DNA from: Natrialba aegyptia DSM 13077
Lineage (GTDB): Archaea; Halobacteriota; Halobacteria; Halobacteriales; Natrialbaceae
Assembly (NCBI RefSeq): GCF_000337535.1
Contig: NZ_AOIP01000031.1
Location: 506,704 to 570,703, forward strand
DNA: 64,000 nucleotides
Direction of reading: 5' to 3'
How positions within the stretch are numbered: the first letter of the stretch is position 1; each line of letters starts with the position of its first letter. A model generated the notes under the pieces. That model was not told the DNA's origin and made no database searches. It was given only the letters and a program-made list of their open reading frames with translations. The position numbers were made by a program, and so were the translations under genes. Shown piece after piece: positions 57,481 to 63,034 of the stretch.

Positions 57481-58491
57481 TCACTCACGAAGCGCCGGCG
57501 CGACCTCGTCGCCGAGGCGGCGGACGCAGTCGATCATCGCCTCAGTATCGACGCCCGGGTAGTACGTTCGGAGGATGAAGTGGCTATCGTCGCCGAGCGC
57601 GTCCCGGTAGCTCTCGAGTTCAGCGGCGACCTGCTCGGGCGTGCCGAATATCGCCTGTTCTTTCAGCTCCCGCTTGCGCTCCTCGTCGAGTTCGTCGACG
57701 GATTCGCCGGAGAAAATCTCCGCGTAGCGCCGCTGCAGGTAGAAGTATCCCTCTCGCATCGCCTCCCAGGCCTCCTCGCGAGAGTCGCCCACCCAGCCGT
57801 GCTGGAGCGCGTAGATCGTGAACTCGCCGTCGATGTCTTCCTCGTCGCGAACGCGGCGGATGTCCCGGACGCGCTTGCGGACGCCCTCGATCGAGAGCGA
57901 CGAGGGGGCACACCAACCGTCGGCGGTGCGGGCGGCCCGGCGAACGGCGGGTTTGGCCGCCCCGCCGAGCATAATCGGGACTGTATCGTCGGCGGGTTTC
58001 GGCGTGATCGAGACATCGGCCGGCACGTCGTGAAAGTCCGACTCGTAGTCGAGTTCGCCCGCGCTCCAGGCACCGCGGAGGAAGGGGACGAGGTCGGCGA
58101 GTCGCTCGCCGCGCTCCTCGCGCGGGACGCCGAAGATATCGAACTCGTGCGGGTTCGAGCCGATCGCGAGGCCGAGGGTGAGCCGGTCGTCGGCGAGCAG
58201 GTCGACCGTGGCCGCGTCTTCGGCTAGCCGGATCGGGTCGTACAGCGGGCCGAGCGCGACGCAGCTGCCGATCTCGAGCCGGTCGGTTTCGGCGGCCATC
58301 GCGCCGAGGGTCGGCATCGTTCCGGAGAGGTAGTCGTCCGCGGCGAAGTGGTGTTCGGAGACCCACGCGCTGTCGAGTCCGGCGGCCTCGATCTCGCGGG
58401 TCAACGCGAGGATCTCGTCGTAGCGTTCGCTCGCCGTTCGCTCGTCGTCCGGTCGCTGCTGGCCGGTAAACAGTCCGGTTCCGAGTTCCAT
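57481..58491 (-). CDS. LLM class flavin/F420-dependent oxidoreductase
   Basis: The 336-residue luciferase-like TIM barrel starts MELGTGLFTGQQRPDDERTA and has WVSEHHFAADDYLSGTMPTL, SCVALGPLYDPIRLAEDAAT, GLAIGSNPHEFDIFGVP and PIMLGGAAKPAVRRAARTA. The cofactor may be FMN or F420. It is convergent with PaaI copy 2. The ATG at 58491 sets a normal length. An upstream in-frame extension is antisense to the epimerase gene and is not used. Confidence 0.85.
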   Translation of the reverse strand: MELGTGLFTGQQRPDDERTASERYDEILALTREIEAAGLDSAWVSEHHFAADDYLSGTMPTLGAMAAETDRLEIGSCVALGPLYDPIRLAEDAATVDLLADDRLTLGLAIGSNPHEFDIFGVPREERGERLADLVPFLRGAWSAGELDYESDFHDVPADVSITPKPADDTVPIMLGGAAKPAVRRAARTADGWCAPSSLSIEGVRKRVRDIRRVRDEEDIDGEFTIYALQHGWVGDSREEAWEAMREGYFYLQRRYAEIFSGESVDELDEERKRELKEQAIFGTPEQVAAELESYRDALGDDSHFILRTYYPGVDTEAMIDCVRRLGDEVAPALRE

Positions 58492-62242: not shown

Positions 62243-63034
62243 ATGTACAAGCACGTCGCCCTGCTGGTTCGACAGGAGGGACTGTCTCACGAGGAGTTCG
62301 TCGACCACTGGCAGACCACCCACACGCCGATCGCCCGCGAGATCGAGGGCGTCGTCCGGTACCAGCAGGTCCTCCCGACCGACCCCGAGAACGCCGAGTT
62401 CGACGGCCTGGCTGAACTCTACTTCGAGGACCTCGAAGACCTCTATGCCGCCCTCGGCAGCGAGGGTTCACGCGACTACGACCCGGACCAGGGCAAAGCC
62501 AAGGAGGCCCGCGAGGACGTGAACAACTTCCTCGCCGTCGAAGAGCGACCGCGGTTCATCGGCGAAGAGATCGTCCAGAAAGACGAAGTCGGCGGCGACA
62601 GCGTGGAGCGTAGCTCCACGAGCAACCGGACGAAGTCCGGTGACACCGACGGCCTGTACAAACACTCGGCGTTCCTGGTTCGCAAGGAGGGCATGACCCA
62701 CGACGAGTTCGTCGACTACTGGCAGACCACTCACACGCCGATCGCCCGCGAAATCGAGGGCGTCGTGAAGTACAACACCGTGATCCCGACCGATCCCGAG
62801 CACGCCGAGTTCGACGGCGTCGCCGAACTCTACTTCGAGGACCTCGAGAAGCTCTACGACGCGCTCGGCAGCGAGGGATCGCGCGATTACGACCCCGCCC
62901 GCGGGAAGGCAAAGGAGGCCCGCGAGGACGTGAACAACTTCCTCGCCGTCGAAGAGCGACCGCGGTTCATCGGCCGGGAACGACTCGTCAAAGCCGACGG
63001 GGAACGCGTCGGAACCGGCGGCGGCCGGAGGTGA
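62243..63034 (+). CDS. Tandem EthD-domain protein
   Basis: The 263-residue protein is two EthD (dimeric alpha-beta barrel) domains in a row: MYKHVALLVRQEGLSHEEFV and LYKHSAFLVRKEGMTHDEFV, each going on with HWQTTHTPIAREIEGVV or the Tyr version. They end NNFLAVEERPRFIG twice. Single-domain EthD proteins work as dimers, so the tandem may be an intramolecular dimer. The domains are 137 residues apart. The linker (EVGGDSVERSSTSNRTKSGD) is made by two hairpins. EthD proteins accompany ring hydroxylases and catabolic operons. Confidence 0.88.
   Translation: MYKHVALLVRQEGLSHEEFVDHWQTTHTPIAREIEGVVRYQQVLPTDPENAEFDGLAELYFEDLEDLYAALGSEGSRDYDPDQGKAKEAREDVNNFLAVEERPRFIGEEIVQKDEVGGDSVERSSTSNRTKSGDTDGLYKHSAFLVRKEGMTHDEFVDYWQTTHTPIAREIEGVVKYNTVIPTDPEHAEFDGVAELYFEDLEKLYDALGSEGSRDYDPARGKAKEAREDVNNFLAVEERPRFIGRERLVKADGERVGTGGGRR
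62501..62563 (+). repeat. Direct repeat, first copy (EthD gene)
   Basis: This 63-bp segment of the first EthD domain is identical to 62912-62974 in the second. The exact match inside more diverged flanking coding sequence suggests recent gene conversion or recent duplication. Confidence 0.8.
62602..62641 (+). repeat. Paired hairpins coding the EthD linker
   Basis: CGTGGAGC-GTA-GCTCCACG (62602-62620) and ACCGGAC-GAA-GTCCGGT (62625-62641) are two perfect stem-loops with 3-nt loops, five bases apart and in frame. They code the linker SVERSSTSNRTKSG between the EthD domains and resemble an inserted palindromic element. Confidence 0.7.
62912..62974 (+). repeat. Direct repeat, second copy (EthD gene)
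   Basis: Identical to 62501-62563, offset 411 bp (137 codons). Confidence 0.8.

Follow-up and report, generated by a model that had tools for sequence, protein, structure and literature searches.

A 45-nt double-hairpin element in the linker of a tandem EthD gene of Natrialba aegyptia and its family in the Halobacteria

The window, the whole stretch of 64,000 nt of Natrialba aegyptia DSM 13077 that was analysed, carries at 62243-63034 (+) a gene of one uninterrupted open frame, 263 aa long, with two EthD stretches (Table 1). Both family profiles match the protein in two stretches each and well above their curated cut-offs: PF07110 with 88.9 bits (E 5e-25; cut-off 22) and TIGR02118 with 90.5 bits (cut-off 30.5), which places the gene among the EthD family reductases. 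The halves are 84% alike over 300 nt at an offset of 411 nt, the 137 codons given by the earlier note. A structure predicted with AlphaFold2 from 20 aligned relatives models both EthD domains confidently (171 of 263 residues with pLDDT >=90) and gives a pLDDT <50 for residues 118-131. No tRNA was found between positions 58000 and 64000, around the gene.

Table 1. Features of the tandem EthD gene and of the element in its linker (positions in the window).
Feature	Position	Strand	Remarks
Tandem EthD-family gene	62243..63034	+	263 aa, stop included in coordinates
First EthD half	62243..62599	+	through the GAC codon preceding the insert
GAC (Asp) codon	62597..62599	+	directly 5' of the insert; commonest 5' neighbour in the family
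45-nt double-hairpin element	62600..62644	+	in frame, peptide SVERSSTSNRTKSGD; empty sites in relatives; covariance-model match
Hairpin 1	62602..62620	+	8-bp stem, loop GTA; variable stem within the family
RGCA spacer	62621..62624	+	conserved, separates the hairpins
Hairpin 2	62625..62641	+	7-bp stem, loop GAA; conserved CCGGAC/GTCCGG, covarying outer pair
Terminal GAC of the element	62642..62644	+	
Second EthD half	62645..63034	+	

The linker between the halves is occupied by an insert of 45 nt, or 15 codons, with GAC at its end, which is placed between two codons and leaves the reading frame intact. Hairpin 1 is written CGTGGAGC-GTA-GCTCCACG (8 bp, 3-nt loop) and hairpin 2 ACCGGAC-GAA-GTCCGGT (7 bp, 3-nt loop). 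When 62600-62644 is folded as single-stranded DNA, the structure consists of just these two hairpins, with an energy of -16.2 kcal/mol (z -6.2), and none of 200 shuffles was equally stable; the two perfect stem-loops described from the letters by the earlier note are thus recovered.

A search for the EthD gene found it in 37 of 61 genomes, from which 30 tandem loci were fetched (L004-L033). In 25 of them, including four species of the window's genus, the linker is short, GDTDG-like and free of any palindrome. An insert of 15 residues at this point is confined to five of the 30 (L004, L005, L006, L007 and L021); an additional carrier, L069, belongs to the genus of L007. The insert of L021, from another family of the order, is a different one, placed at the identical codon junction. 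In a tree built from 31 EthD proteins after removal of the linker, L021 stands far from the other carriers, and the presence of the insert takes three changes, at least two of them forced by well supported branches. The plain GDTDG linker is widespread in the order, same genus included: the tandem duplication preceded the insert, and the 45 nt were a later addition.

The longest perfect run between the two halves does measure 63 nt (62501-62563 vs. 62912-62974), as had been noted, although it is not special: in relatives, such runs range from 19 to 78 nt, the longest being that of L014, which has no insert. As runs of up to 78 nt occur in insert-free relatives, the 63-nt run is better read as exchange between the halves than as the mark of a young duplication. 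Across the window gene and L004-L033, the position of the perfect runs differs between species, which suggests that the two halves of one gene still exchange sequence.

The insert belongs to a family with a constant layout, AG-(8-bp stem, 3-nt loop)-RGCA-(7-bp stem, 3-nt loop)-GAC, 45 nt long with a variant of 48 nt; the inserted unit runs from AGC to YGAC. Among the 92 coding copies, hairpin 1 is best read with an 8-bp stem and a 3-nt loop in 81, of which 42 are perfect, and with a 9-bp stem and a 4-nt loop in nine. For covariation, a gap-free alignment was made in which each of 38 host clusters is represented by a single copy; the other three of the 41 clusters have no fitting 45-nt copy and were excluded. 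The two-hairpin structure pairs 96.7% of the 570 stem cells, against 29-39% in slid structures. Both sides had changed in 73 cells, against 22 in shuffles, and one side only in none. In hairpin 2, covariation is seen at the outer pair (A with T, G with C), whereas the inner six pairs are invariant but fixed by the search pattern: the pattern used to gather the loci prescribes hairpin 2, and its constancy is hence partly imposed.

Pairs were also counted over 89 of 91 coding copies, leaving out two without the usual stem geometry. This gave 1291 Watson-Crick, eight G-T and 45 other cells; among the last, 22 are C-T at the outermost pair of hairpin 1, and 12 are A-C mismatches (one of them C-A), which are as common as G-T. 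Changes in the stems replace complete Watson-Crick pairs, and G-T is nearly absent, a behaviour that points to DNA hairpins. GNA loops with a closing C-G pair give DNA hairpins an unusual stability; the loop of hairpin 2 is GNA in 66 of the 89 copies. A search of four loci against the curated families of Rfam gave no match to the element: only a tRNA and a ribosomal leader were hit, elsewhere in L122. Each hairpin pairs with itself and the ends of the element stay unpaired, so the terminal inverted repeats that join the ends of a MITE are lacking.

With a covariance model of the family (R1), a match at E <=0.01 was obtained in 198 of 243 genomes of the order, a lower bound, as stricter filters were used and at most 25 candidates were scored per genome; about two of 243 genomes would be expected by chance at this E-value. 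In one genus (g23), 13 of the 14 genomes listed have 12 to 25 matches. The EthD insert itself scores 68.8 bits (E 4.5e-13), and the genome of the window holds a second match (E 4e-4), in frame. This second copy (L234, G000:C15:262092-262140) lies in a nitrite/sulfite-reductase-like gene and its hairpin 2 has decayed; the nitrite/sulfite-reductase-like gene of L189 carries an intact copy at a different position.

The exact pattern, run over 84,980 species with one genome apiece, was found in at least 119 stretches. Among the 80 matches listed, 78 are haloarchaeal by name; the other two, in Amycolatopsis (L105) and in a bacterial bin (L150, below the coding threshold), are taken as chance matches. 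The same pattern had no match in viral contigs, which disfavours carriage of the element by viruses. The hairpin-2 pattern with one mismatch matched look-alikes in 105 of the 293 genomes searched, but the control was noisy: read backwards, it matched in many genomes too, so that many single hits are due to chance. Reading of 20 regions picked from these look-alikes, next to the loci returned, revealed the 45-nt double-hairpin unit in frame within unrelated genes; the claims on the family rest on the covariance model and the exact pattern, not on the one-mismatch pattern. Since the exact pattern misses units in which both hairpins have changed, the family is larger than counted. In the non-coding arrays of L091 (around 5968, minus strand), L174 and L110, both hairpins vary from unit to unit and the spacers RGCAR and YGACAG are constant.

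After removal of matches closer than 120 nt to the end of a locus, of duplicates and of L001-L003 and L203, 142 distinct contexts were counted. Judged by the codon statistics of the flanks, 92 are coding in the element's own frame, S/T-x-N/S-R-T-x-S-G-D. Another four (L103, L142, L176 and L182) are on the strand opposite to a gene, with the codon phase unchanged, and none of the 142 is above the coding threshold in any other phase. The remaining 46 fall below this threshold and comprise non-coding copies as well as some truly coding ones (e.g., L129 in uL2). The four antisense copies encode a quite different peptide, VAGxxPAASxTS.

With L105 dropped, 91 sense coding copies share a single codon phase in 41 host-gene clusters. 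Together with the 198 genomes, this bears out the statement of the earlier note that short palindromic elements form Ser/Arg/Thr-rich linkers within the reading frame of other proteins of haloarchaea. Four hosts were matched to solved structures (uL2, DnaK, the adenylosuccinate synthetase PurA and Mre11); others were named from our own reading of the sequence: nicotinate phosphoribosyltransferase, MutS, isoleucyl-tRNA synthetase, a P-type ATPase, a mercuric-reductase-like flavoprotein, a sirtuin and a TFS-like protein. The largest cluster (26 of the 91 copies) consists of histidine kinases, in which the unit is repeated at 45-nt steps after the N-box. In L066 (978-1166), L067, L145, L118 and L154, these arrays follow the N-box of the ATPase domain directly, and SVEHG itself is repeated.

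Filled and empty sites differ precisely by the element. The uL2 of L122 (Halomicrobium katesii) aligns with L2 from Haloarcula (PDB 1s72) with one clean gap of 15 residues. The uL2 loci L237 (G197) and L239 (G133) are 97.45% identical over 3765 nt, and the 45 gap letters in total are the element; this difference could reflect a precise loss rather than a gain. In PurA, two insertion sites exist; L127 carries the element at one and L158 at the other, and each lacks it at the site occupied in its counterpart. From a comparison with 50 queries, only the pairs named in this text were used; many of the queries returned tandem neighbours or distant paralogues only. The uL2 protein was found in 190 of 195 genomes and, among the places listed, is longer by about 15 residues only in G197, G200, G026 and G159, which represent four families. 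In G159, the 45-nt insert occupies the shared junction with stem 1 recognizable and stem 2, on our own reading, no longer so. Loss combined with recombination between lineages could explain some of the shared sites without new insertions.

The insertion sites have a preferred neighbour: GAC precedes the element at 35 of 50 non-kinase sites, compared with 8.0% of the host codons (2109/26485). As regards the target site duplication of a MITE, GAC stands at both ends of the element at these 35 sites, and a different 5' triplet at the other 15 means that a fixed duplication of 3 nt does not hold throughout. Nor is one needed, given the ATC that precedes the copy in nicotinate phosphoribosyltransferase. 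The preference for GAC may in part be a survivor bias, the loops of halophilic proteins being rich in Asp.

The sequence comparisons above, with a constant geometry, precise filled and empty sites, same-phase, in-frame residence in many conserved proteins that are unrelated to each other and repeated occurrence at identical codon junctions in distant lineages, make it very probable that the linker insert is one copy of a palindromic mobile element that is dispersed in the Halobacteria and inserts precisely, mostly behind GAC. The element would depend on paired DNA for its movement, insert with sharp ends and add 15 codons (16 in some copies) without changing the frame. The folded single strand, or a cruciform, might be recognised by a recombinase or transposase; template switching might serve as well. 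The GAC target would be read as Asp, whose codon is common in surface loops; proteins would accordingly tolerate copies of this phase and orientation, and others would be purged. Insertions that land in acidic loops would survive because they add 15/16 codons, are stop-free in the frame set by GAC and have a target that codes for Asp. Target and selection together would account for the one-phase, mostly one-strand pattern, and a mechanistic strand bias possibly acts alongside them. Once inserted, a copy would be at best neutral and its palindrome would decay. Resident copies have indeed lost pairs (L006, L007, L234 and the uL2 of G159), which suggests that the host does not need them. That such minimal DNA-hairpin elements, which by landing behind GAC would place new copies between codons of surface loops, have repeatedly hit the same junctions of essential genes such as that of uL2 across the order, and so remodel core haloarchaeal proteins by natural in-frame linker insertion, seems to us an even call.

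How the element would be moved is the subject of a more specific proposal. Y1 (HUH) transposases act on single-stranded hairpins and insert behind a short target. An enzyme of this IS200/IS605 kind acting in trans would fit the two hairpins, their fixed polarity, the favoured short 5' neighbour with its terminal copy of the trinucleotide and the lack of a consistent target duplication. Moreover, palindrome-associated elements of Haloquadratum are described, in the passages of PMC3119063, as related to IS605-type transposons. Against it, no such gene was recognised beside ten non-coding or weakly scored copies, where the first 60 residues of the coding-looking frames were read by eye; the proposal is possible but less likely than not. 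A master copy adjoining a transposase was likewise not recognised among the frames beside these ten copies.

An origin in the histidine kinases is rather improbable. The units would be by-products of the growth of a 45-nt kinase repeat (N-box SVEHG plus STSNRTxSGD) that escaped by ectopic recombination, as the weight of the kinase cluster, its frequent tandem arrays and the closeness of the EthD peptide SVERSSTSNRTKSGD to the kinase unit SVEHGSTSNRTQSGD would allow. However, stem 1 is unlike the N-box in most other hosts, non-coding arrays with both stems altered exist, and ectopic recombination leaves the sharp insertion into genes without homology unexplained.

Selection on the mRNA, for stability or for a translation pause between domains, would make the copies functional regulatory structures. 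The insert does fold well as RNA (-24.8 kcal/mol, z -5.25) and its paired positions covary, but RNA selection tolerates G-U, and no stem cell of the 570 had changed on one side only. Because such selection would also prefer G-U over A-C, the equal rarity of G-T and A-C in the 89 copies places the constraint at the DNA level, where the hairpins probably matter; G-T being nearly absent and resident copies decaying, an RNA function is very unlikely.

It is hardly credible that the peptide is what was selected, as a flexible Ser/Asp/Gly linker useful in high salt and spread by recombination: the sense coding copies do give a hydrophilic peptide with the ending S/T-x-N/S-R-T-x-S-G-D, predicted to be disordered in the EthD model, yet the residues of stem 1 vary while its base pairs are kept, and copies are also extragenic and antisense to genes.

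Practically untenable is the proposal of the earlier note that the palindrome was the bridge when a single EthD gene was duplicated in tandem and in frame. In spite of an element precisely between the halves and a 63-nt repeat resembling a recent duplication, the 25 tandem loci with a plain linker, same-genus orthologues among them, rule out such a bridge, and insert-free relatives with likewise long perfect runs suggest half-to-half exchange. Of the two circumstances named there as speaking against it, unrelated linkers in the tandem genes of other genera do occur, whereas the stem-loops are by no means restricted to this gene.

Like the mobile element proposed here, REP palindromes are small and occur in many copies, and they are mobilised by REP-associated transposases. 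They are extragenic and 20-40 bp long (PMC3733652), whereas a large share of the haloarchaeal copies seen here is intragenic, with the fixed spacers RGCA and GAC. The PATEs of Haloquadratum walsbyi, with which the likeness is by description, are also haloarchaeal, transposase-free and palindromic near their termini, and a terminal-only version measures 52 bp; in-frame coding copies of this kind do not figure in the passages of that paper on PATEs (PMC3119063). Palindromic repetitive elements with coding potential in Methanocaldococcus jannaschii (Suyama et al. 2005, cited in PMC2229807) are archaeal palindromes fused into protein genes; the likeness, taken from this citation only, is between the repeats of one methanogen and an order-wide haloarchaeal family.

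The closest parallel in behaviour is offered by the Rickettsia palindromic elements (RPE), which, according to the cited passages, reside in frame in many unrelated conserved proteins, are tolerated as an extra peptide and also occur outside genes; the haloarchaeal element has in-frame copies in 41 host-gene clusters. RPE are long stem-loops with terminal inverted repeats, of 105-146 bp (PMC2229807) or about 150 bp (PMC10969869), and are found in Rickettsia. The element described here has 45/48 nt, two separate hairpins (8-bp and 7-bp stems, each with a 3-nt loop) and a favoured site behind GAC, and its listed matches are haloarchaeal by name but for two of 80. It is RPE-like in behaviour, unlike RPE in length, geometry and sequence, and unrelated to them. 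An earlier description of the family in haloarchaea was not found in the full text of open-licence PMC papers.

The family thus represents an archaeal counterpart of RPE that is about three times shorter, spans a whole order and has among its hosts a ribosomal protein with a relative of known structure. It illustrates how a single event can give a protein a short disordered loop while the frame is preserved. How such elements move becomes a testable question in Haloferax, Halorubrum and other tractable, harmless laboratory organisms. In annotation, inserts of 15 residues with this form in haloarchaeal proteins are to be read as copies of the element and not as features of the protein.

A second, non-coding motif was observed in some of the loci: GAGGCTGGGGAGGCGTGAGGTGCGG, followed after 10-30 nt by GGTGGGACTCAAAGGGGCAG, for example in L104 (4917, minus strand), L112 (364, minus strand) and L132 (2863). 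It occurs in 24 places in L084-L202, mostly in Halorubrum loci, and is often adjoined by the double-hairpin element in either orientation.
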